The notes below the pieces were generated by a model. That model did not search any database. It was not told where the DNA came from and saw only the letters and a list, made by a program, of their open reading frames with translations. 64,000 bases of DNA, taken from contig NZ_LXYE02000001.1 of assembly GCF_001659685.2 (NCBI RefSeq), positions 1 to 64,000 on the forward strand, read 5' to 3'. This document shows, piece after piece, positions 17,752 through 44,831 of the stretch (position 1 is its first letter; each line of letters opens with the position of its first letter). This stretch comes from Labilibacter marinus (GTDB lineage: Bacteria; Bacteroidota; Bacteroidia; Bacteroidales; Marinilabiliaceae). The translations under genes and the position numbers were made by a program.

Positions 17752-20700
17752 TTATTTTTTTATAAACTTTTTAAAATAATGGTCACCACTAACTTTAACA
17801 TTTAGGATGTAAACACCCGTTGATAGTTGGTTGGTGTTTACTACTATTTTATTAGCGCCTATTAGAGCAGCTTCATTTTTACTAATCACTTTTCTTCCAT
17901 TGATATCAAGGATGTTGAGTTGCACATCATCAGGTTCCGTTAGTTCAAACTCAACAATACATTGGTTTCTTACAGGATTAGGATAAAGTGTTATTGTTTC
18001 CTTACCAGTTTCCTCTATAATGGAGTTGTCATCACCATCTTCTGGGGTATACTCGTTTACAATTACACCTTTTTCTATGGCTCTGGCCCAACCACTACCT
18101 TTTAGAGCACACCAATAAACACCTTCCTGATCAGGATCTGGTCTTAAATCAACAATTGTATTGGGCTGCCCAAGGTTTTTATTTACTTTTCGCCATGTAG
18201 CACCTCCATCAAGTGAAACATATGCACCCGGGTTAAATAGTGATCCTCCTTGCGATTCGTGAGGCATAGCTGCATTTACTAAAATGATATCTGGGTTTAT
18301 GGGCGATGTTTCTGCTTGCCATATCCAAGGTAGGTAGAATATCTTTTTCCAACTTGCTCCGTTATCAGTGCTCTTCCACACACCACCTTCTTCAAACGAT
18401 CCGATGTATCGGCCGCAAGAGATATATAAATCTTTGGTTGTTTTATCTATATGAATATTATTGACCGCTTTAATAACAGAAGGAATCGTCATCTTATGCC
18501 AATTGGCTCCTTTGTCTGTTGATTTATATAATCCACCAGCAACACCCGTTTTACTTTCGTTTAATGCTGCATAAAGCGTAGAAGAGTTTTCTGGATGCAT
18601 TTTTAATCTACTCACACTTGCATCAGCAGGTAAGCCAGTATCTTCAATAGTCCAACTTACACCACCATTACTACTCTTATAAATTCCAAAATCGTTAAAG
18701 CCATCTGGTACGTTGTTTGAACTTACTTCCGTAATGGCATTTTCAGGCATTACAAAGTATATATTCTCAGGATTGGTATAATCAACAGTTAGGTTATATT
18801 GAAACATCATATCACCTGATTCATTGGCGGTCCAGTTGACAGGTTTTGAAACGTTAAACCATGTTTTACCTCCATCTGTTGATTTTCTGAATTGACCTCT
18901 ATGGCTCTGACGGAACATCAGGATGTAAATTTCGTCTGGATTAGTTGGGTGTACTGCCACCGATGCTATGGAATGAGCACCTCCAGCGTTTACCTGACCT
19001 TCTATTTGCTTTACAGCTACAGCAGTTTTATCAGCGAAAGTGCCTATTGGAGAAGATTCCCACAAACCATGCTCACCACTGCAGAAGAATTTCCGACCAG
19101 GTTTACCTGTTTCTAATAACATAAACCTACCAGGTAAGTTACTGGCACCTCGGCCAACCCAGGCATGGCTTCCTGTTTCGGTTTCAAAATCATCTACTTG
19201 TTCCCAAGAACTACCATTGTTATTTGAGCGTAAAATCTGTTGATCTAAGCATATAAAAACTTCACCATCCTTATTTATTTCCAAGAATCGATTACCCCAA
19301 GTTTCTTCACGAATATCCATTTCGTGCTGAAGGTGAGCATAGGTCGTATTGGTTCCTGTAGGGCAATTTCTTGATGACCAATAGCTGTTGTCTTGGCCAT
19401 CTATCCAATACTTACCACTACGTGCTGTTGCAAACCAAGTGTTACCGCCATCTGTTGTTTTCCATACATCGCCCGCTCCAAAGGTTCTATCGTGTTTTAC
19501 ATTATTGGCAATGTATATTTCATTTTTATTGTTCGGATTTACCCTTAAGCGATTATAAACAGGTAATATGCTTGACGGATAAGTAGGGTAGGTGTTTTTA
19601 GCTGTAGCTTTATCTACTCCGAACCAATAACCAATGGCATTGTGATATTTATCGCGTGTAGTATAACTAGTTACTCTGGTAAGATCCAGTGCTGCATTTC
19701 CTGTAATACTAGTCCAATTAACACCTCCGTCCGTACTTTTGTATATTCCACCTTCCGAAGTTACCGTTGAGCCTTGCGGGCTGTATGTGGTTTGAAGTAC
19801 CGTATACAGGATAAATTCATCATCCGTTTCATTGTAATAATAATCCATGTCGCGGGCAAAATGATGAGGAAGGCCTGATGTGCTTGCTGTCCAATTAAGC
19901 CCTTGGTTGGAGCTTCTGAAAATACCATAATTGGTGATGGCAATAACATGGTTTGAATTACGAGGATCAACTATAATTTTACCAAACTCAGTATCAACAG
20001 CAAAGTTATCTGTTATTTTAGTCCACGTTTCTCCTTTGTTGGTACTTTTATAAAGATGGCCATATTGCGCATATTTATAGATATATCCTTGTGAAGGATC
20101 GTTGAAACTAGCGAGGCTTCGATGATTGGCTTTTACATTCCAAAAATCACCAGCACCCATATACCAAATATCATCATTGGATGGGTCTACCGCAAGTTCA
20201 CAGTGTCTCCCACCAAAGTTTTTAGTAGCTTGATATTCCCAGTTGTGGCCCATATCTGTGGTTTGGTATAAATAACCTCTAACATCTATGGCCATTCCAA
20301 AATTAGGATCTTGATGAGAGAAGGTGATGGATTGAACTCTTCTCATATAAACGCCTGTTCCATCACAGTTTTTGATGGTGTGCCATGATTGTCCGTTATC
20401 CCAGGTTCCATAGCTATTATACATATCTGGTGATTGAAACATGACATTTTCATCTGTTGGGTGACACCAGAACTCTTCGCAATAACCAGCCATACCTGGT
20501 CCAAATTGTTTCCATACCACTGAATCAACGGATGCAACAGTTTTATTCTTTAAATCATTAAAAAAGGTAGGCATTCCTTTTTCTACATAAAAGTCCCACT
20601 CTTCGCCTTGTATTATTTTATCATCAGCATCGATGGCATCAATTTTCCATTTGTAGGTGCTTAGGTCTGCTAAATTATCAACATCCCATTGCTTTGCAGA

Positions 20701-21576: not shown

Positions 21577-21935
21577 GCGTAATAATTTTAATTTGTATAA
21601 TCAATTAGCTCATATTAGCATCTGCTTATGCAAGAGTCAATTGCGGATACTGGTTTCATACTTGTAGTTTCAATTTGATTTGGTTTTTTTAAGATGAAAC
21701 AAAAATGAAAATTATCCATGAAAGTGAGCTGATTATATTAACCTGTAAAACAGGGGTGTATGCAAACGCTGTTTAGATAAATATTAGTTGAATTTGAAAT
21801 TTGGGGTAAAAATAAGGGTAAATATGGAGGATGTAGCTATAGGGTAATAATGGAAGCTTGTTTTGTTTAAGTTGCAGAAATTCAGGTTGTAGTATGGGGT
21901 GGTAATGGAAATGCGGGGTAGGAAATAAGACAAAA
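21577..21935. other. Intergenic region upstream of propeller paralogue 1
   Basis: About 360 bp between the start of one giant gene and the terminator of the next. No gene seen. It must carry the leftward promoter of the gene at 17752-21576. Confidence 0.5.
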
Positions 21936-21964: not shown

Positions 21965-21976
21965 AGTTTGGGAAAT

Positions 21977-24900
21977 TTACATTTTCACAAATTTGTGAAA
22001 TGTTGTTTTATCATCGGTCTCTATTTTTAAAAGGTAGTGACCAGTACTTAATTCTGAAACATCAATCTTTTTGTTGGGAGTAGATAAAAACTGCACTCCT
22101 GAAGTTGAAACAACCGAATAAACAGCCGTTTCATTTACGCCGCTCACTTGTAAATTATTTTGTGCTGGATTTGGATAAATCTCCAAGTTATCACGAGTTG
22201 GGTATTTTACAGCAGTATCAATCTTTTTTACTTCTACTTTTACATCAATGGCATCGCTACCTTCGCTATTACTAACACTTAAGCCAAAAGTTAATACTTC
22301 ATCATTTTCAACATCTGGAGCTGTAAAAGTAATTTTATGATTGGTGATGGTATATTCGGTCACTTCGTCAGGAACGGTCCAAGTGTATTCCAATTGAGAA
22401 CCTATAGAACCATGTGCATACAAGGTGTGCTCATCGCGCATATCTACCACGGCATCATCACAAATAGCTTTTATCTCATCTGTTTTAATCATTCCTTTAT
22501 ACCATCCAGAACCCCAAGCAGCACTGTAAAGTATGTTTTCATTATAAGGATCAAGTTCTATATCTACCATTTTATCTGGCTGACCGATACCCTTATTAAT
22601 TTTTACCCAATTAGCACCATCATCTTGCGAAAGATAAAAACCAGGATTTTTAAAAGCTCCACCAACCTGACCAGCAGCATTCACTAAAATAATGTCTGGG
22701 TTTACGGGCGATGTTTCAACATGCCACACATAAGGTGCTTTAAAAAACATCTCCCAAGAAGCACCATTGTCTTTACTTCTGTATACACCACCCGCATTAT
22801 AATCGCCAGTACGAGCACCACAACAGATATACATATACTTGGTGTTTCGGTCGATGTAAATGTTATTTACTGATCTAATTTCAGTAGGTATGTCCATTTG
22901 AGTCCAGGTAACTGCTTTGTCTGTAGATTTATAAAGACCATAAGGATCGTTATTGCTCCATTGGTTTAATGCAGCATATAAGGTTTCTGGATTCTCTGGG
23001 TCTAGGATAATTCGGTTTACACTACCATTAGCAGGAACCCAGTCGTTACTTGCTGTCCACGAATTACCACCATTTGTAGATCGATAAACACCATATTCTC
23101 CCATGGTTAAATCTTGACCAGGACCAGAGTTTGTACCACAGGAAATCGGTTTGTAAATAGCCGTAAAATACATGTTCTCTGGATTTATAGGGTCAATTTT
23201 TAAGCTGTATTGACTTGCTGTAGCTTCCCATGAACCATTATCTGTATCGAATATTTGAACCACATTATTCCATGTTTTTCCGCCGTCGGTTGTTTTACGT
23301 AACCAACCTCTATGTTCTTGACGCCAAGCTAATATAAAGATGATGTTAGGATCATTAGGATGAACAGCAACAGTTGAAACCGAATGGGCATCATGATTAC
23401 CATTGATGTCGTTCACCTGACCTTGAATCTGTTGGGCAGCGACAGCATCTTTATCTGAATAATCGCCTATGTCAGCTGTTTGCCATAAACCGTGCTCACC
23501 GCTACACATTAACATACGATCAGGTATGCCTGTTTCGGATAGAATAAAGCGTCCAGGTAGGTCGCTTGTCCCACGAGTAATCCAAGCTCCACTGCCCGGG
23601 GCTGTTTCTACATCATCAATTTGCTCCCATGTTTCGCCATGGTTAGTAGAGCGTTGTGTTTGCTGGTTAATTCCAATAAATACTTCTCCGTCTGCATTAA
23701 TCGCTAAATGACGACAAGCTGAGGAGGATTCAAGAGATTGGTCTAAGGAAGCCTGTAGGTGTGCAAATTCAACATTCGGAGTAGTAGTCATTCCTTTTGA
23801 TTGCCAATAGCCAGCATCCGAATTTTCGTGCCAATAGGTTCCGTGTTTGGTCACAATTTTCCATGTCTGTCCACCGTCTGCACTTCTCCAAATATCGCCA
23901 GGACCAAATGATTTATCATGTCTTTGGTTAGCATATAAGTATAGCTCGTTTTTATCCTTTGGATTAACGACTAAACGTCTGAAGACCTGTAGCGTGTTTG
24001 TTGGGAAATCTTTAGCCGCAATGACGCTTTTATCTTTTCCTAACCAATATGCAACTAGTTTGTTATAACCATCCCTAAATGAGCTATTTGTAATCTGATT
24101 AAAATCAAGACCTAAATCTCCAGTAATGCTTGTCCAGTTATCTCCGCCATCAGTACTTTTATATACTCCGCCAGAGGTGGCAATAGTATTTCCTGATTCG
24201 CTATAAACTGATTGTTCAACTGTGTATAAAATATACTCTTTGGTAACAGGGTCGTAGTATTCGGCTAAATCTTTTGGCAGGTCGTTTGGTAAGCCCGTAT
24301 TACTTGCATTCCATGTAGCACCTGCATCAGTACTTACAAACATTCCTTGCCCTGTTGCTATTACAATTCTATCGGAATTGTTTGGGTTTACCCTAATTCT
24401 ACCAATATCCAACATATCATCAATGTCAGTAGCTATTTTGTCCCAAGTTGCACCGCCATCAGTCGTTTTTAGAATATATCCATAGGCAGAAATTGGTCGG
24501 TGTGTACCTTGTGGGCTTGCAGCTGATCGCCAGTTGCCCTTCACGTCCCAGAAACCACCAGCACCTATATACCAGGTGTCATCATCGTTTGGATCTATTA
24601 CCACTCTGGAATGAGCGTTGTACCATGGGCTTGTTGCAGCGTGATCCATTAAAAACTTTAGTTCCCACGAGCGTCCCATGTCGTTGGTAACAAATACCTT
24701 TCCTCTTCGCTCAATAGCTACTCCAAAGTCTGGGTTGGATGAGGAGAAGGTCAGATCATTTACGCGTTCTAAATCAAGTCCATCTCCGTCGCTATCTTTT
24801 AGTGTTTGCCACGATTCTCCATTATCCCAGGTACCGTATGCTACATGCATATCAGGGCCCATAAACATCACTTCGACTTGTGTTGGATGACACCAAAATT

Positions 24901-25909
24901 CTTCGTTGTAACCTGACATACCTGGGCCAAATTGCTTCCATTCAACAAGGTCGCTCGATTCCATCCTTTTGGTTTTGATATGCTCAAAGAAGTCTAGTTC
25001 AGGTTCTACGTATACTGATTTAAGTACCGCATACCCATCAATAGCGTTCATCTCCCAGATATCCTCAAAATCTAAATCTGGGTAGTTTGTCGCATCTGCT
25101 AATTCTGTGTCATCTAATCCAGTTGCATTGGCATCTGCCTCAGCAGTAGATGATTTATAATATGACTTGGTTGGAGCAATACCGGCTTTATTGGCTGTAC
25201 CATCGTTTTGTACTGTAACAATTGCTGGTCCTCCAGAAACGATACCGTAAAATGCTACTTGTGTAATCTCGTGCTCGCCACGATTGGCACCTACTATTCC
25301 TCCTGAACCCCAGCCTGCAGTTACTGTGGTAGTGCTATAGCAGTTGTTAATACTCTTTGTTCCTCCTGAAAAAAGTCCACCAACAATACTACCAGTCCAA
25401 CCTCCACTACCTGCAGAAACTGTACCTCCCAAACTATAACACTGTGATATTGAACCACCAATTAGTTCTCCCACAAAAGCACCAATTCTACTGCTATTAT
25501 TTCCAGCAGATGCATCAATCGAAATGTTTATAATACCAACACTGGTGATGGTTCCATTGATAGCTCCAAACAGACCTGTACCTTGCTGGTATAAACCATC
25601 AACATTGGCAACAGGTGTTACTGTTAAGTTAGATATTGTATGGAATTTTCCGTTTAGGTGTCCGTTAAATACGCTAACAGTATTACCAATTGGCGTAAAA
25701 GAAACACCACTCATATCTATATCAGCACCTAATTCAAAATATTTTTCTCCAGTCCAATCTCCAGTTGTTGTAGATAAGGTACTCAAATGAGTAGGTTGAT
25801 TTATAATGTATGGATCGCCAGATGTTCCATTTCCTCCTCCGTACTGAGCCATTAGCGCAGTCTTCATAAGTGCTAGTGTAAACAGAAGCACAATAGATTT
25901 TAACTTCAT
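21977..25909 (-). CDS. Giant T9SS-secreted Asp-box beta-propeller protein with GLUG-like N-domain (paralogue 2)
   Basis: 1310 aa. Signal peptide 1-21 (ends ALMAQ). Residues ~25-300 carry glycine-rich GLUG-type repeats (IGAFVGELIGGSISQCYSLGG; SIVGGLFSGGTKSINNCYST; GGIVGANRGEHEITQ), common in adhesins and surface enzymes. The shared propeller core starts at ~315 (ESSDLVEWKQFGPGMSGYNEEFWCHPT) and runs to ~1120 with Asp-boxes (TTDGGATW, STDAGATW, STDGGDNW, SADGGQTW, STNHGETW, STNGGNSW, SKDNGASW, SQDDGANW). Then come a PKD/Ig-like domain (~1130-1225) and a type IX sorting tail (LEIYPNPAQNN ... FHKFVKM). One core Cys of the other copies (GYCEEF) is Asn here (GYNEEF). Probably surface-exposed; substrate unknown. 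Confidence 0.85.
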   Translation of the reverse strand: MKLKSIVLLFTLALMKTALMAQYGGGNGTSGDPYIINQPTHLSTLSTTTGDWTGEKYFELGADIDMSGVSFTPIGNTVSVFNGHLNGKFHTISNLTVTPVANVDGLYQQGTGLFGAINGTITSVGIINISIDASAGNNSSRIGAFVGELIGGSISQCYSLGGTVSAGSGGWTGSIVGGLFSGGTKSINNCYSTTTVTAGWGSGGIVGANRGEHEITQVAFYGIVSGGPAIVTVQNDGTANKAGIAPTKSYYKSSTAEADANATGLDDTELADATNYPDLDFEDIWEMNAIDGYAVLKSVYVEPELDFFEHIKTKRMESSDLVEWKQFGPGMSGYNEEFWCHPTQVEVMFMGPDMHVAYGTWDNGESWQTLKDSDGDGLDLERVNDLTFSSSNPDFGVAIERRGKVFVTNDMGRSWELKFLMDHAATSPWYNAHSRVVIDPNDDDTWYIGAGGFWDVKGNWRSAASPQGTHRPISAYGYILKTTDGGATWDKIATDIDDMLDIGRIRVNPNNSDRIVIATGQGMFVSTDAGATWNASNTGLPNDLPKDLAEYYDPVTKEYILYTVEQSVYSESGNTIATSGGVYKSTDGGDNWTSITGDLGLDFNQITNSSFRDGYNKLVAYWLGKDKSVIAAKDFPTNTLQVFRRLVVNPKDKNELYLYANQRHDKSFGPGDIWRSADGGQTWKIVTKHGTYWHENSDAGYWQSKGMTTTPNVEFAHLQASLDQSLESSSACRHLAINADGEVFIGINQQTQRSTNHGETWEQIDDVETAPGSGAWITRGTSDLPGRFILSETGIPDRMLMCSGEHGLWQTADIGDYSDKDAVAAQQIQGQVNDINGNHDAHSVSTVAVHPNDPNIIFILAWRQEHRGWLRKTTDGGKTWNNVVQIFDTDNGSWEATASQYSLKIDPINPENMYFTAIYKPISCGTNSGPGQDLTMGEYGVYRSTNGGNSWTASNDWVPANGSVNRIILDPENPETLYAALNQWSNNDPYGLYKSTDKAVTWTQMDIPTEIRSVNNIYIDRNTKYMYICCGARTGDYNAGGVYRSKDNGASWEMFFKAPYVWHVETSPVNPDIILVNAAGQVGGAFKNPGFYLSQDDGANWVKINKGIGQPDKMVDIELDPYNENILYSAAWGSGWYKGMIKTDEIKAICDDAVVDMRDEHTLYAHGSIGSQLEYTWTVPDEVTEYTITNHKITFTAPDVENDEVLTFGLSVSNSEGSDAIDVKVEVKKIDTAVKYPTRDNLEIYPNPAQNNLQVSGVNETAVYSVVSTSGVQFLSTPNKKIDVSELSTGHYLLKIETDDKTTFHKFVKM

Positions 25910-30252: not shown

Positions 30253-30431
30253 GGTTGTTTTATCTGGATATTTAAAATGGGAAATTACTTAAATTATTTT
30301 TTGAGGATTGCACATAAGCTCTAAAACAACGTTGATTAGCTGTTAAAATTTGGGTTAAATTAAATTAACACCCCTTATAAACCGTGGAATACCTCCTTTT
30401 GAGAGATGTCTTTTTTTCGTATTTTGTCGCT

Positions 30432-31619
30432 ATGTCAGCAAAAGAAAAAAACGATATTATTCTTCCATATTTAAGTCGTGTCTGCGAAAATAGGGCTTTT
30501 GAAAAGTCACCACGTAATGTCAGGCTCCTGAAATTTTTAGTGGATCAGAGTCTACAAGGTAAAGATGTGAACGAATATGTGATAGGACTCGAGCTTTTTG
30601 CAGATAATTATGATCCGGATAAAAATGATAGTAAAGTGAGGGTTTATATGTATAACCTCAGAAAAAAGCTTTACGAATATTATCATTCCGACGGAAAAAA
30701 TGACGCTATTAAATTTTCGATTGATAAGGGCCAATACAACTTAAGGTATGAGGAAAAGGAAAAAGAGTTGTTGGATGATAAAGGCCAAGGGATGGCGATT
30801 TTTTTTAATAAGCATAAAAATATATTGCTAAGTCTTGTCCTGTTATTGGTGCTGATAAGCGCCCTGTTTATTTGGGTATTTAAGTATAGTTCGGAACAAA
30901 AGTATTGCTGGTCTGAGTTTTTTGTTGAAGAAGCCAATAACATTTGTGTGATAGCTGATCAGGTAATTTGCTGGCAACCATTAGGAGATAGAGTAGATCC
31001 TCGAATCAATGAGCATATCAATAGTGAAGCCGATTTTATTACATATAAACAAAAACATCCTGAAGATTCTATCCGATTAGCTAATTATAGTTTGTATTCT
31101 AAAATGGCACCATTTGCAATTAAGGATTTAAATAGTTGGTTTATTGAGCATGGCAGTGATTTTGCTTTACGGCAAGAGAGTCGCTTTGATTTGGAAGAGT
31201 TGCGCAATCATAATGTGGTATATATTGGTCAGTTTAAAACGATGACTACCTCAAAGTCCGTTTTTTTAAAGGATAGTAAAAAGTTTAAAGTCCGATATAA
31301 ACCACACGGTTTTATTTATCAGGAAGGAGACTTGAAAAAGACGTATATACCTAATAATTATCCTAATATTCAGACTGAGTATGCTATGGTATCATATATG
31401 AAACTGAGTAGTGGAAAAAAAGGTTTATACTTTGTTTCGAATAATGATATTGGAGTAATGGCTACGGTAAACAAGTTTACAAATAAAGACTGGATGGTAG
31501 ATTTTTATACCAATTTATCTTCTGAAGATAGTTACTTTAATGCTTTATTTGAAGTTAACGGCCTGCAACGAACAGAGATTAGTTGTGAGTTGATTCATTT
31601 TGAAGAGATTAATTATTAA
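30432..31619 (+). CDS. Membrane-anchored one-component winged-helix-like regulator
   Basis: 395 aa from the ATG at 30432; a GTG at 30384 would add 16 residues. Residues ~10-105 match the cytoplasmic DNA-binding-like domain found at the N-terminus of some adenylate-cyclase and ToxR-type proteins: LLKFLVDQSLQGKDVNEYVIGLELFADNYDPDKNDSKVRV followed by LRKKLYEYY. One transmembrane helix (ILLSLVLLLVLISALFIWVF, ~125-147 of the shorter form) separates it from a ~245-residue periplasmic domain that I do not recognise. This is a ToxR/CadC-like arrangement of outside sensing and inside DNA binding. It is divergent from the GH43-like gene (about 180 bp between the start codons). Confidence 0.75.
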   Translation: MSAKEKNDIILPYLSRVCENRAFEKSPRNVRLLKFLVDQSLQGKDVNEYVIGLELFADNYDPDKNDSKVRVYMYNLRKKLYEYYHSDGKNDAIKFSIDKGQYNLRYEEKEKELLDDKGQGMAIFFNKHKNILLSLVLLLVLISALFIWVFKYSSEQKYCWSEFFVEEANNICVIADQVICWQPLGDRVDPRINEHINSEADFITYKQKHPEDSIRLANYSLYSKMAPFAIKDLNSWFIEHGSDFALRQESRFDLEELRNHNVVYIGQFKTMTTSKSVFLKDSKKFKVRYKPHGFIYQEGDLKKTYIPNNYPNIQTEYAMVSYMKLSSGKKGLYFVSNNDIGVMATVNKFTNKDWMVDFYTNLSSEDSYFNALFEVNGLQRTEISCELIHFEEINY

Positions 31620-33962: not shown

Positions 33963-34817
33963 CTATTCTAGCTTCCAAGTTCTAATCCATTCATATTTAG
34001 TAGTGCGTTGCTCCCATGTTCCACTTTCCACTATGCCACCATCTTCAGGAATCGGGTTCCAGCTATACGTTTCTATTGCCATGTGTAAGTAGGCTGGATT
34101 ATCCCATTCTACCTTAGGATTGATAGAGTATTGATATTCGCCATCTAAAAAGAATTGAATTTCTTTGGGAGATTTCCACCAAGCGGCATATATGTAATAA
34201 CGTGCATAGTTAGGTTCCTTTAGTTTGCTTGCATTTTGCAATTGTAATTTCTCAGCACATGCAGTATGGCGATGTATAGCGTTAGAATGGAAGATACTGT
34301 CCCAACCTTTTGACCAAGGTTCAGATAATTCGGTGGTTCTGCCGACACATTCTTGAATATCTGTTTCTAGCTTCTTTTTGCAATTATATTTAGTCATTAA
34401 CCAAAAGGTAGATGACATTACTGTAGCATTGGCTTTCATCTTACATTCAAAATACCATCCAACATTACCTGGTTTTAAAGATCGAATAATAGCACCTTGA
34501 TGGGTAAAGTTTTTTCCATTAATGGTTTGTGGTTGATCCAGTTTACTTACCGTAACATTCATGTTTCCATCATTCACTACAATGTTCTCTTTACGAAATA
34601 AACCAGGAGGGCGACCAATCCAAGCCCAATCGTTTCCAACAGGATCGACTTGCCATTTCGATAAATCCATTTTATCACCTTCAAACTCGTCAGATAAGTT
34701 TTCAACGGGAACCCATTTCTTGTCTGAAGGTTTAGGGTCGTTACCCGATTTAAAAGTAGGTTGAGCACTAATAATGGTAAATAATATGGAGAATGTTATT
34801 GTGAATATTGTTTTCAT
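33963..34817 (-). CDS. GH16 family endo-glycosidase (agarase/porphyranase-like branch)
   Basis: 284 aa. Signal peptide 1-19 (ends IISAQ). A single GH16 jelly roll fills the rest: LSDEFEGDKMDLSKW, the GRPPGLFRKENIVV segment typical of agarase/porphyranase relatives, then the catalytic ExDxxE motif as Glu151-T-Asp153-I-Q-Glu156. The usual EIDxxE form is ETDIQE here. SSTFWLM precedes it and HMAIETYSW follows. GH16 enzymes of this branch cut beta-linked red-algal galactans, but specificity cannot be fixed by eye. It is the last gene of a sulfatase-propeller-GH16 operon (57 bp after the propeller), so all three probably meet the same polymer. No T9SS tail. Confidence 0.88.
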   Translation of the reverse strand: MKTIFTITFSILFTIISAQPTFKSGNDPKPSDKKWVPVENLSDEFEGDKMDLSKWQVDPVGNDWAWIGRPPGLFRKENIVVNDGNMNVTVSKLDQPQTINGKNFTHQGAIIRSLKPGNVGWYFECKMKANATVMSSTFWLMTKYNCKKKLETDIQECVGRTTELSEPWSKGWDSIFHSNAIHRHTACAEKLQLQNASKLKEPNYARYYIYAAWWKSPKEIQFFLDGEYQYSINPKVEWDNPAYLHMAIETYSWNPIPEDGGIVESGTWEQRTTKYEWIRTWKLE

Positions 34818-34874: not shown

Positions 34875-37436
34875 TTACTTCTCCGACCAGCCATTCTTGG
34901 TTCCTTTTAAATAACCAATAGCCCAGCCACTTCCTTTTTGAGAGCTCCAAAAAATATCTTCGCGATAAGGGTCTGGTTTAAAATCTACTATTCTATCCTG
35001 CTGTCCTAAATTATTATTGATTTTATTCCAAGTTTTTCCACCGTCCATAGACACATATGCACCAGGGTTTAACCTCTTGTTCGCATCTTTAGTTTTAGGA
35101 GGAAGTGCTGCACAAACGGTTATAATATCAGGGTTAATAGGGGAGGGTTCGCATTGCCAGATAAATGGCAAGTCAAATATCTTTTCCCACTTTTTACCAC
35201 CATCTTTACTGCGCCAAGCACCACCACCAGCATCTGTGGCTTGTTCATTACCGCACGAAATATAAATATGCTGGTTGTTTCTATCCACATAAACGTTATT
35301 GACAGATTGTATTGTAGAAGGAATGTTTACTTTTTTCCAATTTAAACCTTTGTCAATTGATTTATATAAAGCACCGTTTTTATCGTTAGCTGCAGCATAT
35401 AAAATTGCAGGGTTTTTAGGATCCATCATCACACGTCGTATACTGACATTGGCATGAAAGCCATTGTTGCTGAGTTCCCAATTTTTGCCTCCATCGGTAG
35501 AACGGTAAAAACCATAATCTCCTTTAGTCAGTTTTTTAGCATATGGTCCAGCCACCTCAGAAATAGGATTTCTTGTTGCACAGAAATACATATTATCTGG
35601 GGTGATAGGGTCGATGATTAATGAGTTTTGAAATACCAAACGCTGGTGCATTGGGACATCTGCATCAAAAATGGTAGAAATGTTTTTCCATGTTTTTCCT
35701 CCATCGATTGACTTACGTAGTTTTCCTCTGTTCTCTTGGCGATAAGATAAAAAATAGATGATGTCTGGATTTTGCGGATGAATCGCTACTGAACTTGCAG
35801 AGTGCGAACCTCCATGATGAATTTGTCCATCTAATTGCTCTACAGCAACAGCCATTTTATCTGGGTAGTTACCTAAGGGTGCCGTTTGCCATAAACCGTG
35901 CTCTCCGCTGCACATCAAATATCTATCCTTCTTTCCTGTCTCTAGTAACATCAAACGGCCTGGTAGGTTACTATCGCCACGACCTACCCAATGATTGCAG
36001 CCAGGCTCAGTTTCGTTATCATCAATTTGCTCCCAGGATTTGCCTCCATTTTTAGATTGGAGAACTTGTTGGTCCAAGCAAATATACGCTGTTCCATCTA
36101 TGCTAAGCTCTAAAAAACGATTACCCCAAGTTTCTTCTCTTCGGTCCATTTCTGGTTGAAGATGTGCGAAAGTGGTATTGGTGCCAATCGGGTTATTTCT
36201 CGATTTCCAATACGCATTATCCTTGCCCTCAATCCAGTATTTTCCTTCTCTGGCTGCTGCTATCCATGTTTTACCTCCATCGTTACTTTTCCATGCTCCG
36301 CCAGGTAAAAAAGATTTATCGTGTTTATTATTGTGCGATAGGTAGATTTCGTTTTTATTCAGCGGGTTAACCTGAATTCGATGCCAAACATCAAATGCTT
36401 TAGTGGGTAATTCAGGATGTTTCTGTTGAATGCTTTTAGTATTCGATTGAAACCAAAATGCTAAAGAATTCCAATATTTATTGCGCAGGATGTTACTGCT
36501 TATTTCGTTCATATCTACCGCTAAATTGCCAGATATATTTTGCCAACTTGCTCCATGGTCAGTACTCTTAAAAACACCACCTTGCACACTTACCGTTTTT
36601 CTATCTGCCTCAAAAGCGGTTTGCTCTAACAAGTAAAGGATAAATTCTTTTGAGTCTGTATCATAAAAGTAATCTAAATCGCGCGGACGATTAACGGGCA
36701 GTCCTTGCGCACTGGATTTCCATGTTTTTCCTTGGTTGGTACTTCGAAACAAACCTTTGCTGGTAGCTGCAATAATTACTTTCGAATCAGTTGGGGCTAT
36801 AGCAATACGACCTACATCCAGATTTTCAAAATCTCCAATTATAACTTTGTTCCAGGTTTTACCTTTGTTGGTACTTTTGTAAATGCCGTTATTTTTAAAG
36901 TTACGAGTCTGCCCATCTTTAAAGCGATGATTGGCTTTTACATTCCAAAAGTCTCCAGGACCTACATACCAGTTATTGTCATTGGAAGGGTCTACCACAA
37001 TATCGGCAGACCGTCCTTTAAACTTATACGTTTCTTTCCAACTTTTACCAGTATCCTTGGTTATAAATAGGGTGCCACTTCCTGTGATGGCATATCCAAA
37101 CGCTGGGTTCTGGTGTGAGAATTCAAATTTGCGCACACGAGCCAAATCTTTACCTATTCCGTCGCAATCCTTCATGGTATGCCATGATTTACCAGCATCC
37201 CATGAGCCATAAGTGTTATACATATCCGGCGACATCATAATTACATTGGGGTCTGTTGGGTGACACCAAAACTCTTCGCAATACCCAGACATTCCGGGCC
37301 CTACTTGTCTCCATTCAACTAGGTCACTCGATTCAACTTGTTTTGTATGTAACGTGTTAAAATACGCTTTATCTATTTGAGCATGTAAAGTCAGACACAA
37401 TAGAATAATGATGGCACTTAATGTTAATCGTATCAT
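34875..37436 (-). CDS. Secreted Asp-box beta-propeller protein (paralogue 3)
   Basis: 853 aa. Signal peptide 1-19 (ends LHAQ). The whole mature protein is the paralogue core: ESSDLVEWRQVGPGMSGYCEEFWCHPTDPNVIMMSPDMYNTYG, then about ten Asp-boxes (STNKGKTW, STNQGKTW, STDHGASW, SNDGGKTW, SKNGGKSW, SIDGGKTW, STDGGKNW, SKDGGKKW, SMDGGKTW), ending GSGWAIGYLKGTKNGW. It has no N-terminal extra domain and no T9SS tail, unlike paralogues 1 and 2. Databases usually label such proteins VPS10/sortilin or glycosyl hydrolase BNR repeat; no catalytic residues are established. It sits 22 bp after a sulfatase and 57 bp before the GH16 gene in one operon. Confidence 0.85.
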   Translation of the reverse strand: MIRLTLSAIIILLCLTLHAQIDKAYFNTLHTKQVESSDLVEWRQVGPGMSGYCEEFWCHPTDPNVIMMSPDMYNTYGSWDAGKSWHTMKDCDGIGKDLARVRKFEFSHQNPAFGYAITGSGTLFITKDTGKSWKETYKFKGRSADIVVDPSNDNNWYVGPGDFWNVKANHRFKDGQTRNFKNNGIYKSTNKGKTWNKVIIGDFENLDVGRIAIAPTDSKVIIAATSKGLFRSTNQGKTWKSSAQGLPVNRPRDLDYFYDTDSKEFILYLLEQTAFEADRKTVSVQGGVFKSTDHGASWQNISGNLAVDMNEISSNILRNKYWNSLAFWFQSNTKSIQQKHPELPTKAFDVWHRIQVNPLNKNEIYLSHNNKHDKSFLPGGAWKSNDGGKTWIAAAREGKYWIEGKDNAYWKSRNNPIGTNTTFAHLQPEMDRREETWGNRFLELSIDGTAYICLDQQVLQSKNGGKSWEQIDDNETEPGCNHWVGRGDSNLPGRLMLLETGKKDRYLMCSGEHGLWQTAPLGNYPDKMAVAVEQLDGQIHHGGSHSASSVAIHPQNPDIIYFLSYRQENRGKLRKSIDGGKTWKNISTIFDADVPMHQRLVFQNSLIIDPITPDNMYFCATRNPISEVAGPYAKKLTKGDYGFYRSTDGGKNWELSNNGFHANVSIRRVMMDPKNPAILYAAANDKNGALYKSIDKGLNWKKVNIPSTIQSVNNVYVDRNNQHIYISCGNEQATDAGGGAWRSKDGGKKWEKIFDLPFIWQCEPSPINPDIITVCAALPPKTKDANKRLNPGAYVSMDGGKTWNKINNNLGQQDRIVDFKPDPYREDIFWSSQKGSGWAIGYLKGTKNGWSEK

Positions 37437-37458: not shown

Positions 37459-39009
37459 TTATTCAGGTTTAGGAAATTTCCGTATTTTACTATACCTAAT
37501 ATAACTATCAAATATTTCTTTATCAGGACCAACTACTCGGGGATCCTTTGTTTTGGTGAGCTCTTTAATCAGTTCGTTCTTTAATTTTTTAGCGATTTTC
37601 TGATACTTGTTGTCTCCCATTTTATTTAATAAACAGGCTTCATCTTTTTTTAAGTCGTATAATTCAAACTCTTGTCGCTTTTCAGTAGCCCATCGGAAGA
37701 AAACATGAGTTTCGGAAAAGCCTTCTCCACCAATAATGTTGCTTTTAGATGGAGAACCATCAATATCAGTAAAAGCACCCTTATACATAGGTAATAATTC
37801 AGTGGTATCTTTAGGATTATAGAGTTGTGGATCGCCAGCAGGCCAGCGCTCAGGTTTCATATTCCAAATTAATAAATAGTCGCCTTTACGTATGGCGCGT
37901 TGTGGGTAACCCCAATTTTGGTAACGAGATGAGGAATGACGCTCGCGCCCTGAGAATACAGCTTTGTTTTTAGGTTCACTTTTGCCTTTTAAAGTATTGA
38001 GCATACTTGTTCCTGTTAAAGGCTGCATTTGCTTTGGAGTTGTATTTGTAACATCCAAAATGGTAGGAGCTAAATCAACAAAGGAGGTGGGTGTATGAAT
38101 AACACGTTGACTGGAAAATTCTTTAGGGTAACGAATGGCTAATGGAACATGAGCTCCAAAATTGTAGGTGTTAGCCTTGGCTCTGGGAAAAGGCATTCCA
38201 TTGTCGGAAGTAACAATAACAATGGTGTTATCTAACTCACCTACCTTTTCTAGGTACTTTAACATTTTCATTAAATGATGGTCGAACCATTCAATTTCCA
38301 CAGCATAATCTAACAAATCACCGCGAATAATCGGGTTGTCAGGTAAAAACTCAGGAACCTGAACATCTTCTAATTTTTTACCACTTTTCTTCCACGAATC
38401 CTTCTCGTATCCTCGATGAGGTTCTTTGGCTCCAAACCAAAAGAAAAAGGGTTTATCTTGTTTTACTTCGTCTATAAAATATTTAAAGTTGGCAAAGTAA
38501 TTAACGTCATAAATTCCTTTTGCAGGACGAACATCATTCTCTTCGGTATATTTAATTTCATTATGGCAGATACCTGCAGCATTTGTTTCTCTCCATAACG
38601 ATTCTTGCTCGTTTTTGGCATATCTAAATGGGTCAACCCCTTTGCCTGTTCTACCAACTGCATAACCATTGCTTTGCAATTCATCTACAAAAGGCACATA
38701 TTTCTTCATCCATGATGAGCCATGCTGACCCGATTGTTCATTTTGCCAAGGATACCTTCCAGTTACAATAGAACTACGCGATGGAGCGCAACCTGGAGAG
38801 CCTGCATAACAGTTGGAGAAATAAATACCTTCGCTTGCAATGCGATCGAAAGCTGGAGTATTTACAAATGAGGACCCGGCAAAACTAGTATGCGCATAGG
38901 ATTGGTCATCACTAATGGCAAATAAAATGTTTGGCCGTTTTTTTTGTTGAGAAAAACTCGTGGTGTTCGCAAAAGCAATGATTGCAAGTAATAAAATGAA
39001 GCGGGACAT
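37459..39009 (-). CDS. S1-family sulfatase
   Basis: 516 aa. Signal peptide 1-21 (ends TTSFSQ). Metal-site aspartates lie in ISDDQSY (34-35); the canonical maturation motif is CAPSR at Cys74. VTSDNGMPFPRAKANTYNFGAHVPLAIRYP supplies the late metal site. The GRYPWQNEQSGQHG segment after the motif resembles the sulfamidase-like branch, as does the sulfatase at 16176. It is the first gene of the operon sulfatase-propeller-GH16 (gap 22 bp) and is separated from the upstream GH3 gene by a strong terminator. Substrate position unknown; a sulfated galactan or fucan is inferred from neighbours. Confidence 0.92.
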   Translation of the reverse strand: MSRFILLLAIIAFANTTSFSQQKKRPNILFAISDDQSYAHTSFAGSSFVNTPAFDRIASEGIYFSNCYAGSPGCAPSRSSIVTGRYPWQNEQSGQHGSSWMKKYVPFVDELQSNGYAVGRTGKGVDPFRYAKNEQESLWRETNAAGICHNEIKYTEENDVRPAKGIYDVNYFANFKYFIDEVKQDKPFFFWFGAKEPHRGYEKDSWKKSGKKLEDVQVPEFLPDNPIIRGDLLDYAVEIEWFDHHLMKMLKYLEKVGELDNTIVIVTSDNGMPFPRAKANTYNFGAHVPLAIRYPKEFSSQRVIHTPTSFVDLAPTILDVTNTTPKQMQPLTGTSMLNTLKGKSEPKNKAVFSGRERHSSSRYQNWGYPQRAIRKGDYLLIWNMKPERWPAGDPQLYNPKDTTELLPMYKGAFTDIDGSPSKSNIIGGEGFSETHVFFRWATEKRQEFELYDLKKDEACLLNKMGDNKYQKIAKKLKNELIKELTKTKDPRVVGPDKEIFDSYIRYSKIRKFPKPE

Positions 39010-39288: not shown

Positions 39289-41517
39289 TTAGAACTTACC
39301 GTAAAACATTTTCTTTTTATTAGCAATTTGAATTTCAAATTCGCCAGATTCAGCTACTTCTGCTAGGTCAGGATTAATAAAAGTAAGATCGCTTTTATCC
39401 AATTCAAATTCAAGTATTTTGCTTTCACCTGCCTTTAGAAATACTTTATTGTATTTGCGAAGTTTTCGTATTGGAGGTATTACCGTAGCTACTATATCTT
39501 TTACGAAAAGCTGTGTTTGAATAGCTCCATCAACTTTCCCTGTATTTCTTACTTCAATTTTAACGGCCAATTTTAATGATACGTTTAAAGTATCAGTATT
39601 TAATTGAATATTTCCGTATTCAAAAGTGGTATAACTCAAACCATAACCAAATGGCCATTGCGGATTGTAATATTTTTCGCTGCGAGCTGGGGCATCATAT
39701 GTGGTAATATTTCCAGAAAACTGAGGGTAGGAGAAAGGTAGTTTACCACTTGGGTTATAATCGCCAAAAAGCACATCAGCAATAGCATTAGCACCTTTGC
39801 TTGCCGGGCGATATGCCATAATGATACCATGTATATCTTGCTCAATTTTACTAATAATTCTAGGGCGACCTTCTGTTAATACTAACACAATTGGTTTTCC
39901 TGTTTCTGCAGCAACTTTAGCCAGTTTAATTTGATCTTGCGATAATTCCAGGTCTTCAATGTTACCAGGTGTTTCAGCATAACTTCCTTCTCCCAGGCAT
40001 AGCACAATGCAGTCTGCTTTGCGGGCTTGTCTTTTTAACTCTTTTAGCTCTTTATCGCTTACCTGATGAAATCCTTCAGGAGAAATACAATTCACATTTT
40101 TAGCTCCAACTTTAGCCTCAATAGCTTCTTTAATAGTCAATGTTGATTCTGGAAATACTTTTTCATTCGTTCCCTGCCAGGTGTATGACCAACTTCCGTG
40201 CAGTGAGGAAAGAGATTGAGCGGCTGGTCCCGCTAATAATACTTTGGTATTCTTAATTAAAGGAAGAATTGCTTTACCCTTTAAAGTATCATTTTTCAAT
40301 AAAGTCATGCTCTCCAGTGCGGCTTGAAGCGCCACTTTAGGGTATTCATCCAATGCAAAATGTGCAACAGCTTCTTTTTCAGGATAAGGATTTTCAAATA
40401 AACCTAATTCATGTTTTACTTTCAGGATTCTACGTACGGCATCATCAATACGCTCCATGCTTACTTCACCTTCTTTAATCAATTCAACTAAATCGTGGTA
40501 AAAGCTTAAGTCATTTGGCACCATGCTCATATCAATACCGGCATTAATGGCCATTTTAACCGCTTCTTTGTTGTTGTGAGCCACCATGTGTTCTTTATGC
40601 AGATATAAAATGTCTTCCCAATCGGTTACAATTAAGCCATCAAAACCCCATTCATTTTTCAATAAATCAGTTAATAGGTATTTATTGGCATGCACAGGAA
40701 CTCCATTGATACTTCCTGAGTTTATCATGATGGTTTTTGAACCTGCTTCAACCGCTTTTTTGAAAGGAGGAATAAAGGTATTGTACAATTCGATATCGGA
40801 GATGTATGCAGGTGTTCTATCTTTTCCGGTACGCGGAACGGTATATCCAATGAAGTGTTTCATACATGAAGCTACGTTGGGAATGTTTTTTACATCATCT
40901 CCTTCGTAACCTTTGATGGTAGCTAGTCCAAACTCCTCTACCATTAATGGATCTTCGCCAAAAGTCTCCTCAAAACGCGACCATAATGGCTGACGTCCCA
41001 CCCCCAAAACAGGATCAAAGTTCCAACGAATACCGCTAGCACGAACCTCTTTGGCTGTTATTTGCGCTCCTTGGTAAGCTATTTTAGGGTTTCCGGTTGC
41101 TGCTAAACCTATGTTATGAGGGAATAAAGTGGAGTTTTTGGTGTAGGTAGTTCCATGGATAGCATCTATACCATATATTACAGGAATCTTCATTCTGGTT
41201 TCCTGCGCCAAATCCTGAATCAAGGTAATTACCTCATGCCATTTTTCTATGCTTGGAACACCTGGTTTTGGTATATTTAATACTGAGCCAATATTGTACT
41301 TTACAATGTATTCTTTCAGTTTTTCCGTTTGTAGTACATTCTTTTTGTAGAAAGCACCCAGCGTTATTTGCGTCATCTGACCCACTTTTTCTTCAGGAGT
41401 CATTTCTGCAATTAGCTGTTCAATTTCAGCAGGTACTTTTATTTTTTTTGTTTGTGGTGTTTTATGGCATGATACCAAGGATAGCATAGCCGCAATAAAA
41501 AGAATCCAATTTTTCAT
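39289..41517 (-). CDS. GH3 beta-glycosidase, lipoprotein
   Basis: 742 aa. Lipobox LSLVSC (Cys17). An N-terminal TIM barrel (IPVIYGIDAIHGTTYTKNSTLFPHNIGLAAT; RWNFDPVLGVGRQPLWSRFEETFGEDP) contains the nucleophile Asp in GLIVTDWEDI. It is followed by the alpha/beta sandwich (CIVLCLGEGSYAETPGNIEDLELS) and the C-terminal fibronectin-III-like domain (PFGYGLSYTTFEY). Family members of this form are exo-beta-glucosidases or related. It is probably periplasmic or anchored to the outer membrane. It stands as a single gene ahead of the sulfatase operon, with its own terminator. Length and motifs are normal. Confidence 0.93.
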   Translation of the reverse strand: MKNWILFIAAMLSLVSCHKTPQTKKIKVPAEIEQLIAEMTPEEKVGQMTQITLGAFYKKNVLQTEKLKEYIVKYNIGSVLNIPKPGVPSIEKWHEVITLIQDLAQETRMKIPVIYGIDAIHGTTYTKNSTLFPHNIGLAATGNPKIAYQGAQITAKEVRASGIRWNFDPVLGVGRQPLWSRFEETFGEDPLMVEEFGLATIKGYEGDDVKNIPNVASCMKHFIGYTVPRTGKDRTPAYISDIELYNTFIPPFKKAVEAGSKTIMINSGSINGVPVHANKYLLTDLLKNEWGFDGLIVTDWEDILYLHKEHMVAHNNKEAVKMAINAGIDMSMVPNDLSFYHDLVELIKEGEVSMERIDDAVRRILKVKHELGLFENPYPEKEAVAHFALDEYPKVALQAALESMTLLKNDTLKGKAILPLIKNTKVLLAGPAAQSLSSLHGSWSYTWQGTNEKVFPESTLTIKEAIEAKVGAKNVNCISPEGFHQVSDKELKELKRQARKADCIVLCLGEGSYAETPGNIEDLELSQDQIKLAKVAAETGKPIVLVLTEGRPRIISKIEQDIHGIIMAYRPASKGANAIADVLFGDYNPSGKLPFSYPQFSGNITTYDAPARSEKYYNPQWPFGYGLSYTTFEYGNIQLNTDTLNVSLKLAVKIEVRNTGKVDGAIQTQLFVKDIVATVIPPIRKLRKYNKVFLKAGESKILEFELDKSDLTFINPDLAEVAESGEFEIQIANKKKMFYGKF

Positions 41518-41862
41518 TCGTATGTATTTTCTGTTTTACACAAAATTTGAATTGCGAAAATACTTAGATATTTTAGTATATAGCACTAAGATTCGTTCTA
41601 TTAATGGTGTCATTTGATAACAATGAGTCTGCATTTTGTAATATGTATTCTTTTTGTTCTTTATACGCTAATTTGATTTTGCACTGCTACCTCTTGATAT
41701 ACCATTGTTTACATTTCTGAAGATAATAATACAGCATATTCACTTTTGTATCTCAATTCTTTTAATCGTACTCAGTTTAATACAATGAATTCTTTTTTCA
41801 TTAGTACATAATGCTTAACTTTAGTGAGATACATTATTAATTAACCAATTGTTTTAAAAATT
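41518..41862. other. Divergent intergenic region between GH3 and DUF2007 genes
   Basis: About 345 bp, AT-rich, no gene seen. It contains the promoters for both flanking genes, but I could not place them with confidence. Confidence 0.45.
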
Positions 41863-42096
41863 ATGACAGAGACCGAATTGATTTCCGTTTTTAACGGTAG
41901 CCCGATTGATGCAGATATTATTAAAGAGATATTAGAGGATCATGGAATAATGGTTCAAGTAAAAAATGAGCTGATGGGAAGTATTGCACCTTGGCATGTT
42001 TCGCCTGGAGGTATTGACCCTACTGAGATTGTAGTTTTAGAGAGCGATAAGGAAAATGCGCTTCTGCTGATTGATGAATTTAATAAGAGTAAATAA
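41863..42096 (+). CDS. DUF2007-family small protein
   Basis: 77 aa, soluble. The form TELISVFNGSPIDADIIKEILEDHGIMVQVKNE ... ALLLIDEF matches the DUF2007 (putative signal-transducing) family, a ferredoxin-like alpha/beta domain common in Bacteroidota. Its role is not established. It is monocistronic, ending at the strong bidirectional terminator it shares with the convergent propeller gene. Confidence 0.82.
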   Translation: MTETELISVFNGSPIDADIIKEILEDHGIMVQVKNELMGSIAPWHVSPGGIDPTEIVVLESDKENALLLIDEFNKSK

Positions 42097-42138
42097 CTAA
42101 TTCAGGGTTTAATCCGAATTTATTTAAGGTATATGTTA

Positions 42139-42174
42139 TTCACTAGGTTCAGTGTAAATACTGAACCTAGTGAA
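42139..42174. terminator. Bidirectional terminator between DUF2007 and propeller paralogue 4
   Basis: 15-bp perfect stem ttcactaggttcagt / actgaacctagtgaa with a 6-nt loop, between two converging genes. The right side is followed by TAATTAGT; both strands have short T tracts. Confidence 0.75.
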
Positions 42175-42233
42175 TAATTAGTCTATTTAAGTAGCTTGAA
42201 ATTAAATTAATAGTTAATAGCGAAGTAACTTAT

Positions 42234-44831
42234 TTACTTCTGCGACCATCCTTTTTTACTTCCTTTTATATAGCCAATAGCCCAACCACTTCCTTTTAAA
42301 GCACACCAAAACACATCTTCGCGATAAGGATCAGGTTTTAGATCAACAACTTGGTTCGGTTGCCCTAGGTTATTATTGATTTTATTCCATGTTTTGCCTC
42401 CATCTAAGGATAAGTAAGCACCACAATTGAAAGTAGTCGCACCTTTTCTTTCGTGCTGTAGCGGAACAGACACGGTTATAATATCTGGATTAATAGGAGA
42501 GACTTCCGTTTGCCACACATACGGCATATCAAACACTTTTTCCCACGATTTACCTTCGTTTTTACTGCGCCAAACGCCGCCTTCCTCAAACGTTCCTTCT
42601 GAAGTTCCGCACGAGATAAATATATCATGTGTTGTTTTATCTATAAATACATCGTTAACGGCTTTTATTTGAGCGGGTATTTTTACTTTTTCCCAGCTTG
42701 CAGCCTTATTTTTACTCATATATAATCCACCTGTATTTCCGTTTAAACTTTGGTTGGAGGCAGCGTATAAAATCGAAGAATTTGTTGGGTGCATTTTTAT
42801 TCTGCGAATGCAAACATTTGCTGGCATTCCTGTATTTTCGGGAGACCATGTATAACCACCATCATTACTTTTCATCACGCCAAACTTCGAGAATCCTTTA
42901 GGTAAACGATGTCCGCTAACTTCGGCAATAGGGTTTTTTATCACCACAAAGTAGATGTTATTCGGGTTTTGCGGATCAATAGTTAATGAATGCTGAAAAA
43001 TATGCTGCATAGAATAATTGCTATCGTGTTCCAAAGGAACCGACAAGTTCTCCCAAGTTTTACCACCGTCTGTTGAACGACGAAAAGCGCCACGATGGTC
43101 TTGACGGAACATAATCATGTAAATAGTATTTGGGTCGTTTGGATGAACGGCAACCGAAGCGATAGATGTGGCTCCTTTATGGTTTACCTGACCTTCAATC
43201 TGCTTTAAAGCTACGGCTTTTTTATCTTTATAATCACCCAGAGGCGCAGATTGCCACAAACCATGTTCGCCACTACAGAACAAGTATTTGTTCTTGTCTC
43301 CAGTCTCAGTTAAGATAAACCTCCCAGGCAAATTGCTGCCTCCGCGTCCAACCCAATGGTGGGTTCCTGCAGAAGTTTCGTAGTCATCAATTTGTTCCCA
43401 GCTTTCGCCGTGATTTTCAGAACGCATAATCTGTTGTTCAAGGCAAATAAAAACTTCACCTTGGCTATTGATTTCCATAAAACGATTACCAAATGTTTCT
43501 TCTCTATTGTCTTGCTCGTGTTGTAAATGGGCATATTTAGTATTAGGTACTGTCGGATTATTTCTCGATTCCCAGTAGGCGTTATCCTTGCCTTTACTCC
43601 AATATCTACCTGTACGAGCTGTGGCAATCCATGTTTTTCCACCATCTGAAGTTTTCCAAACATCACCAGGTAAAAAGGCCTTATCGTGTTTGGTGTTGTG
43701 TGAAATGTATATTTCATCCTTATTTAATGGATTTACTACAATTCTGTTATATACAGAATATACTTTCTCTGGTAATTCCGGATATTTAGTTTTAGCCTCT
43801 TTGTCGTTTTTTAAACCTAACCAATGTGCTACCGAACGAAAGTACTTCATCCTTGCTCCATAGCTTGTCATCTTGTTCATATTTACCGCCAAATTACCCG
43901 AAATATTGACCCAACTTTTACCATGGTCAGTACTTTTGTAAATACCACCTTCAGATGTAATTGTTTTTCCTTCGGGAGTAAAACTGGTTTGATCTACAGC
44001 ATATAAAACGAATTCATTATTCTCCTTATCATAGTAAGAAGTTAATGCGCGAGGTGAATTATTGGGTAAACCTTGACCTCCCAACTTCCAACTGTTACCT
44101 GCATCATTACTTAAATAAATACCAGAATTAGCGGCCATTATAACGCGTTTTGAATCGCTTGGGTCAACAATGATTTTAGCCACATCTAATGTTTCGGGTA
44201 GACCTTTAGTTACTTTCTTCCAGCTTTTACCTTTATTGGTGCTTTTGTAAATATGCCCGTAACTTGCATACTTATAAAAGTAACCTTGCGCAGGATCATT
44301 TAAGCTAGCTTGAGTGCGATGATTTGCTTTTACATTCCAAAAATCGCCAGCTCCCATATACCAATTATTATCATTGTTCGGATCAACGGCCAATTCGCAA
44401 TACTTTCCGCTTCCTTTAAATAATGTGGGTTTCCATCTTTTACCCTGGTCGGTAGTTTTATATAAAGTTCCTCTTACATCTATAGCTAAACCAAAATTGG
44501 CATCTTGATGCGAAAATGTAATGGACTGAACCCTGCGCATATTCATTCCTGTGCCATCCACATCTTTTATGGTTTGCCATGATTCTCCATTATCCCAAGT
44601 ACCGTAGCTGTTATACATGTCGGGCGACATAAACATTACATTGGCATCTGTAGGGTGACACCAAAACTCTTCACAATATCCAGCCATACCTGGCCCTACC
44701 TGTGTCCACTCAACCAAATCACTTGATTCTACTCGCTGAGATTGAAGCGTTTTAAAATACTTTTTATCGGTTTGGGCTTGCATATTCATTGCCATTACTA
44801 AGACCAATGCGGAAAATATAAGCTTCATCAT
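42234..44831 (-). CDS. Secreted Asp-box beta-propeller protein (paralogue 4)
   Basis: 865 aa. Signal peptide 1-19 (ends MNMQAQ). The mature protein is the same core as paralogue 3, beginning RVESSDLVEWTQVGPGMAGYCEEFWCHPTDANVMFMSPDMYNSYG and ending GSGWAIGYIKGSKKGW. Asp-boxes include TTDQGKRW, STNKGKSW, SNDAGNSW, STDHGKSW, TSDGGKTW, SENHGESW, STDGGKTW, SNDGGYTW, SKNEGKSW and SLDGGKTW. There is no T9SS tail or accessory domain. Strongly conserved segments among the four copies (YMGAGDFWNVKANHR, GNRFMEINSQGEVFICL, CSGEHGLWQ) point to a conserved active or binding surface. It is monocistronic here. Function unknown; a glycan lyase, hydrolase or binding protein is inferred. Confidence 0.85.
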   Translation of the reverse strand: MMKLIFSALVLVMAMNMQAQTDKKYFKTLQSQRVESSDLVEWTQVGPGMAGYCEEFWCHPTDANVMFMSPDMYNSYGTWDNGESWQTIKDVDGTGMNMRRVQSITFSHQDANFGLAIDVRGTLYKTTDQGKRWKPTLFKGSGKYCELAVDPNNDNNWYMGAGDFWNVKANHRTQASLNDPAQGYFYKYASYGHIYKSTNKGKSWKKVTKGLPETLDVAKIIVDPSDSKRVIMAANSGIYLSNDAGNSWKLGGQGLPNNSPRALTSYYDKENNEFVLYAVDQTSFTPEGKTITSEGGIYKSTDHGKSWVNISGNLAVNMNKMTSYGARMKYFRSVAHWLGLKNDKEAKTKYPELPEKVYSVYNRIVVNPLNKDEIYISHNTKHDKAFLPGDVWKTSDGGKTWIATARTGRYWSKGKDNAYWESRNNPTVPNTKYAHLQHEQDNREETFGNRFMEINSQGEVFICLEQQIMRSENHGESWEQIDDYETSAGTHHWVGRGGSNLPGRFILTETGDKNKYLFCSGEHGLWQSAPLGDYKDKKAVALKQIEGQVNHKGATSIASVAVHPNDPNTIYMIMFRQDHRGAFRRSTDGGKTWENLSVPLEHDSNYSMQHIFQHSLTIDPQNPNNIYFVVIKNPIAEVSGHRLPKGFSKFGVMKSNDGGYTWSPENTGMPANVCIRRIKMHPTNSSILYAASNQSLNGNTGGLYMSKNKAASWEKVKIPAQIKAVNDVFIDKTTHDIFISCGTSEGTFEEGGVWRSKNEGKSWEKVFDMPYVWQTEVSPINPDIITVSVPLQHERKGATTFNCGAYLSLDGGKTWNKINNNLGQPNQVVDLKPDPYREDVFWCALKGSGWAIGYIKGSKKGWSQK

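Follow-up and report, generated by a model that had tools for sequence, protein, structure and literature searches.

Four propeller genes and their neighbours

The window, a 64,000-nucleotide stretch of Labilibacter marinus contig NZ_LXYE02000001.1, carries four related genes whose products have a core of some 820 residues in common; P0001, P0002 and P0004 are 46-57% identical to P0003. An earlier note had placed the genes correctly but omitted that all four lie on the minus strand:

17752..21576, minus strand: P0001, 1274 residues; GH74-like double propeller, extended at the N-terminus and carrying a T9SS sorting domain
21977..25909, minus strand: P0002, 1310 residues; GH74-like double propeller, extended at the N-terminus and carrying a T9SS sorting domain
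34875..37436, minus strand: P0003, 853 residues; GH74-like double propeller
42234..44831, minus strand: P0004, 865 residues; GH74-like double propeller, the copy used for modelling

A Pfam scan did not find the T9SS domain in P0003 or P0004. The near-invariant opening that the note had described recurs in all four proteins as VxWxQxGPGMxGYxEEFWCHPT, and its claim of further conserved segments holds for CSGEHGLW, present in all four, but less strictly for AGDFWNVKANHR and GNRFLEI, which are changed in the 21977 copy (P0002) and slightly so in others. The Asp-box repeats are likewise real, although their estimated number of about ten was slightly low: a simple pattern matches 12, 13, 12 and 12 times in P0001 to P0004, whereas 200 shuffled versions of P0004 average 0.275 matches and never exceed 3.

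Pfam labels the four proteins Sortilin-Vps10 and BNR, with Sortilin/Vps10 (PF15902) being the best label in each case and passing the gathering score. The best NCBIfam label, F510_1955 family glycosylhydrolase (NF045728), belongs to a 246-residue model that matches the proteins in pieces, and all four score below its cut-off of 175 bits (118.8 to 145.6 bits). In the open-licence papers searched, none was recognised as describing the family.

The sulfatase, GH16, GH3 and GH43-like neighbours reported earlier are confirmed by Pfam, PDB matches and BLAST relatives, and the principal genes of the surrounding locus are the following:

2301..3878, minus strand: sulfatase, close to the exo-L-galactose-6-sulfatase 7lha (E 6.9e-202)
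3878..5473, minus strand: GH29, adjoining the sulfatase at 2301..3878; matches a chain named alpha-L-fucosidase (E 2e-99) marginally better than the exo-alpha-L-galactosidase 7ljj (E 1.8e-98)
6106..8559, plus strand: GH2 beta-galactosidase GalB, above the GalB cut-off
16176..17648, minus strand: sulfatase (Pfam), 103 bp from P0001
27793..30252, minus strand: GH43-like protein of 819 residues; no Pfam match at E 1e-3, and a BLAST relative in locus L062 has a GH43 match
33963..34817, minus strand: GH16 resembling porphyranase B, 57 bp from P0003; PDB match to 3juu (E 9.2e-67), no Pfam match at E 1e-3
37459..39009, minus strand: sulfatase, 22 bp from P0003 on the other side from the GH16; no solved structure is closely related, the best match being at E 1.7e-29
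39289..41517, minus strand: GH3 (Pfam)

The proposed link to a sulfated glycan gains support from these genes, which belong to the breakdown of a sulfated red-algal galactan (porphyran). The relatives of porphyranase B (GH16, 3juu) and of Bacteroides plebeius-type porphyran enzymes that are encoded in the window have other folds and are partners of the propellers rather than their kin; porphyranase B-type enzymes and propellers probably act on the same substrate. We presume that the parts of the B. plebeius porphyran locus correspond to the PDB entries matched here. As described in excerpts of PMC12316285, that locus includes a sulfatase, GH29, GH16 and GH2.

Several further features were observed in the window. 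Of the 72 relative loci tabulated below, 7 contain BLAST relatives of the GH43-like protein next to the propeller family. The protein encoded at 30384-31619, which has no Pfam match, has relatives near the propeller family in five other loci, and inspection by eye suggests a membrane-bound regulator. Finally, four consecutive minus-strand ORFs at 47580-54132 resemble sulfatases, three by Pfam and the one at 49084-50703 by a search match.

Fold and candidate active-site residues

Structure prediction, which the earlier note had suggested, was carried out with AlphaFold on P0004 from 50 sequences and yielded a model with a mean pLDDT of 91.6 and a pTM of 0.87, in which counting from DSSP strands and Asp-box positions gives seven blades before and seven after approximately residue 490. 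When the model was compared with the PDB by Foldseek (the best 50 of 1696 matches at E up to 10 were inspected), ranks 1-25 were all GH74 xyloglucanase-type structures at E 1.1e-31 to 3.4e-22 and 13-18% identity, where we take a few of these rows to be GH74 members; the best match is 6p2m (E 1.1e-31, TM 0.60/0.73). The first non-GH74 row, an unrelated WD protein, follows at rank 26 (E 1.4e-15), and the best sortilin row reaches E 1.6e-14 with TM 0.19/0.24. GH74 was also ranked first in a sequence-profile search (2cn2, E 2.7e-24), and a tandem arrangement of 7+7 Asp-box propellers is the GH74 layout given in excerpts of PMC2716378. We regard the fold of the propeller family and its kinship with GH74 as well supported.

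The Pfam search proposed earlier for VPS10 and BNR labels all four proteins but does not identify their nearest fold. Sortilin/Vps10 shares the Asp-box repeats, yet it is a single ten-bladed receptor propeller according to the same excerpts (PMC2716378), whereas our model best matches 7+7 structures, and the fold match to sortilin is far weaker than that to GH74. With GH74 (6p2m, 2cn2/2cn3, 7kn8, 1sqj) the proteins share two tandem Asp-box propellers over a full-length fold match. They differ in the sulfated-galactan gene context, in the proposed second acid, which would be Glu here and is Asp in GH74, and in the Asp-boxes of the N-terminal propeller, present in all seven blades by our own count as compared with four in GH74 (excerpts of PMC2716378). 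GH150 lambda-carrageenase, which also acts on a sulfated red-algal galactan and was compared by description only, is described as folding into three domains, the cleft lying between two lobes, and the word 'propeller' does not occur in the excerpts of PMC12549532.

As the closest relative in both fold and sequence is GH74, the four proteins could be ordinary GH74 xyloglucanases, a reading that we consider very improbable. The signature motifs ARTDxGGAYRW and GDxxGFRHD, seen in GH74 chains, are absent from P0001-P0004, the identity of 13-18% is low, and the context is rich in sulfatases. The 24 of the window's 34 ORFs that were scanned with Pfam include neither GH31 nor any other family of xyloglucan type. 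The strong match to an already characterised CAZyme family that the earlier note had contemplated is therefore found for the fold but not at the level of identity or signature motifs, and because the latter are absent, we do not claim GH74 membership for the family.

The same note had envisaged a new lyase or glycosidase. Propeller-type polysaccharide lyases do exist (PL24, PL25), and the four proteins might resemble some ulvan lyases in this respect. It would be surprising, however, if they did: no protein named as a lyase occurs among the best 50 of 1696 Foldseek matches or among 50 sequence-profile matches, the double-propeller layout is that of GH74 and, to our knowledge, porphyran lacks the uronic acid that an enzyme of this type would attack. 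The glycosidase half of the proposal fares better, being in line with the GH74 fold, the porphyran-type neighbours and the retention of a GH74 acid, D71 in P0004 numbering. The codons of the candidate active-site residues are located as follows:

44619..44621, minus strand: D71 codon of P0004, aligned to an Asp that is mutated in 2cn3, a GH74 structure
37224-37226 (P0003), 20425-20427 (P0001) and 24851-24853 (P0002), minus strand: D71-equivalent codons
43266..43268, minus strand: E522 codon of P0004, proposed second acid
35901-35903 (P0003), 19072-19074 (P0001) and 23495-23497 (P0002), minus strand: E522-equivalent codons

In a whole-length HH alignment to a GH74 sequence (E 2.1e-37), D71 is paired with the Asp of ARTD, a site that is occupied by Asp in 2cn2 (ARADIGG) and by Ala in 2cn3 (ARAAIGG), and the conserved Trp found 29 residues before this Asp in GH74 has its counterpart here. 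Conservation was assessed in a 77-row alignment of 68 of the 72 relative cores and nine of the ten own-genome cores, from which L034 and the own-genome member L004 (internal stops), L037 and L074 (broken frames) and L073 (contig end) were left out. Position 71 is Asp in 76 of the 77 members, the exception being an Asn in one divergent own-genome copy, and E522, in the second propeller, is Glu in all 77. W42 and R576 are each invariant too (77/77), and numerous polar residues outside the Asp-boxes do not vary either.

Neither the whole-length HH alignment nor any of 14 segment runs paired E522 with the second catalytic Asp of GH74, which we take to lie in the GDxxGF motif. E522 is proposed as the second acid on the grounds of internal symmetry and spacing in the sequence. 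When the family's own two propeller starts are aligned (E 8.9e-6), D71 lands one residue off E522, and a Trp precedes each acid by 29 residues (W42-D71 in 77/77 members, W493-E522 in 75/77). A script returns the same spacing in GH74 for three of three sequences at the N-site and two of three at the C-site, the third being also 29 by eye. The spacing is modest evidence on its own, since 0.31 invariant Trp-acid pairs at this distance are expected by chance against two seen and since the N-site spacing of 2cn2 is, by eye, 30 rather than 29. PDB titles mention D60A and D465N mutants of GH74 enzymes, in keeping with two acids. A catalytic Asp/Glu pair is plausible, and D482, invariant in 77/77 members like E522, is an alternative second acid.

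Conservation of these residues also bears on whether the propellers cut glycans at all or bind them non-catalytically, holding substrate for other enzymes. Asp-box propellers can be non-enzymatic receptors, such as the Vps10 domain (excerpts of PMC2716378), and the T9SS sorting domains on two copies would suit surface display. We nevertheless judge a purely binding role to be rather unlikely, as the two acids are kept in 76 and 77 of the 77 members, one of them aligning with an Asp that is mutated in a GH74 structure; the GH74 architecture is retained in full, and many invariant polar residues are not part of the Asp-boxes. We consider enzyme action of the family likely.

Context and spread of the family

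Named relatives were found at 75 loci, and removal of the short partial matches L086, L087 and L090 left a table of 72. Sulfatases occur in 52 of these loci, GH2 in 26, GH29 in 18, GH16, GH117 and DUF5060 in 16 each, and GH86 in 8, counts that are lower bounds, with contigs differing in length and several being short, and that refer to loci of this family. Some sulfatase or named-cluster carbohydrate enzyme is present in 62 of the 72 loci; within the sequence available, GH16, GH86 or GH117 is present in 29, and none of the three in the other 43. In L034, from a MAG, a GH16 domain 40% identical to the window GH16 is fused ahead of the propeller, with a stop near the gene end. At L032:19037-21941, a GH117-type gene adjoins a DUF5060 gene, and the product of the latter may be a further enzyme for red-algal galactans. 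C-terminal extensions of about 230 to 246 residues occur in L019, L020, L021, L038, L039, L040, L071 and L077, and that of L019 ends in a T9SS sorting domain.

The organism's own genome (G000, 6.03 Mb) encodes ten long family members, one of which (L004, G000:C34:15677-18250) contains an internal TAG and may be a pseudogene or reflect a sequencing error. Eight of the ten lie less than 5 kb from a sulfatase, compared with about 14% of random places, and the corresponding binomial P of 5.8e-6 overstates the significance, as several copies share one locus. The genome holds about 93 sulfatase gene places, which mark the organism as a sulfated-glycan specialist. Two divergent members, G003:C3:2320173-2325149 and G000:C28:149473-154775, have a PorB-type GH16 about 2 kb away on the same strand.

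Within the genus, some match at E 1e-3 is found in 8 of 9 genomes, the organism's own included, and full-length members in three, which carry ten, thirteen and four of them; these three of the nine genomes are also the ones with PorB-like GH16. An exo-L-galactose-6-sulfatase query is less specific, with matches in 5/9 genomes of the genus. Across 71 genomes of the taxonomic family, the propellers are carried by five (E 1e-60) and PorB-like GH16 by six, with four having both (Fisher P 7.5e-5); outside the genus, one of two propeller genomes has the GH16 (P 0.095). A sample of the phylum contained the propeller family in 3 of 392 genomes (E 1e-30, with at most two candidates scored per genome), and relatives beyond Bacteroidota come from Verrucomicrobiota, Planctomycetota, Kiritimatiellota, Pseudomonadota and one MAG labelled Clostridia. 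A phage origin was considered and rejected, the phage collection containing no match to the family. Spread by plasmids was likewise set aside: among 25 matching plasmid records, 2 align with 80% or more of the query at a single site, and the strongest match is to a 1.58-Mb Persicobacter plasmid at 48.9% identity.

The closest relative of P0004, from Saccharicrinis aurantiacus, is 74% identical to it. In a quick tree of 77 rows, P0001-P0004 each sit in a different small group together with relatives from other genomes, and the 42234 and 17752 copies share a larger group of 23 rows; the tree flags long branches among divergent own-genome copies, none of which is P0001-P0004. A recent duplication of the four window copies is unsupported, since each groups with relatives from other genomes. 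The separation of the copies into four clades indicates that their specificities probably differ. The neighbours also vary between tree groups, with sulfatases and SASA and PhoD-like genes near several relatives of the 34875 copy (SusC, SusD, SASA and PhoD-like labels in the locus table were assigned by eye) and GH86 near the propeller at several loci from Flammeovirga. The family is therefore likely to act on several substrates, and we argue for porphyran at the window locus only.

This diversity could be taken further, such that each clade of the same kind of hydrolase would have a sulfated glycan to itself, with the window's porphyran genes serving only some of the copies or none. Besides the four separate small clades and the 43 of 72 loci without GH16, GH86 or GH117, the carriers Tamlana fucoidanivorans and Cellulophaga fucicola, named from brown-algal sugars, speak for this arrangement. 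The window itself argues otherwise, as it contains both endo- and exo-acting porphyran genes, with the PorB-like GH16 only 57 bp from P0003; a porphyranase-like domain is fused to the relative in L034, and hallmark genes may lie outside those of the 72 loci that are short contigs. We consider clade-specific glycans a real but distinctly less probable explanation than a common action on sulfated agarans at this locus.

Proposed activity and substrate

Our preferred reading, to which we assign a probability of roughly 0.55, is that the propellers constitute a GH74-like hydrolase family acting, at this locus, on sulfated agarans such as porphyran. P0001-P0004 would be secreted glycoside hydrolases of GH74 architecture, in which two seven-bladed Asp-box propellers face each other over an open cleft, where a long polysaccharide could be held and then cut. 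Cleavage would probably be inverting and would rely on two acids, each contributed by the first blade of its propeller, with D71 (P0004 numbering), which aligns with an Asp that is mutated in a GH74 structure, as the putative first acid and E522, presumed to replace an Asp of GH74, as the candidate second. The sulfated agaran would probably be attacked jointly with the porphyranase-B-like GH16, the exo-L-galactose-6-sulfatase, the exo-alpha-L-galactosidase, the beta-galactosidase and other sulfatases. We infer catalysis, the role of E522, inversion, linkage, endo action and substrate from these comparisons, and porphyran or a similar sulfated agaran is our best guess at the substrate at this locus. 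Not all members need share this substrate, as only 29 of the 72 loci contain GH16, GH86 or GH117 in the sequence available.

The propellers probably represent an uncharacterised family of enzymes that cut seaweed sugars. We more tentatively propose, at somewhat short of even odds, that they form a new GH family sharing a clan with GH74, namely inverting endo-hydrolases for sulfated agarans that use an Asp/Glu pair across two propellers, with clades for different sulfation or methylation patterns assembled in one locus, as a red-seaweed counterpart of the xyloglucanases that act on land-plant walls. If true, this would replace the uninformative Sortilin/Vps10 or BNR Pfam labels and would name the residues whose mutation tests the two-acid idea. 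It would also add a backbone-cutting enzyme class for the highly sulfated polysaccharides of red seaweeds and offer an explanation for the ten to thirteen copies of the family that some marine degraders retain in their genomes.
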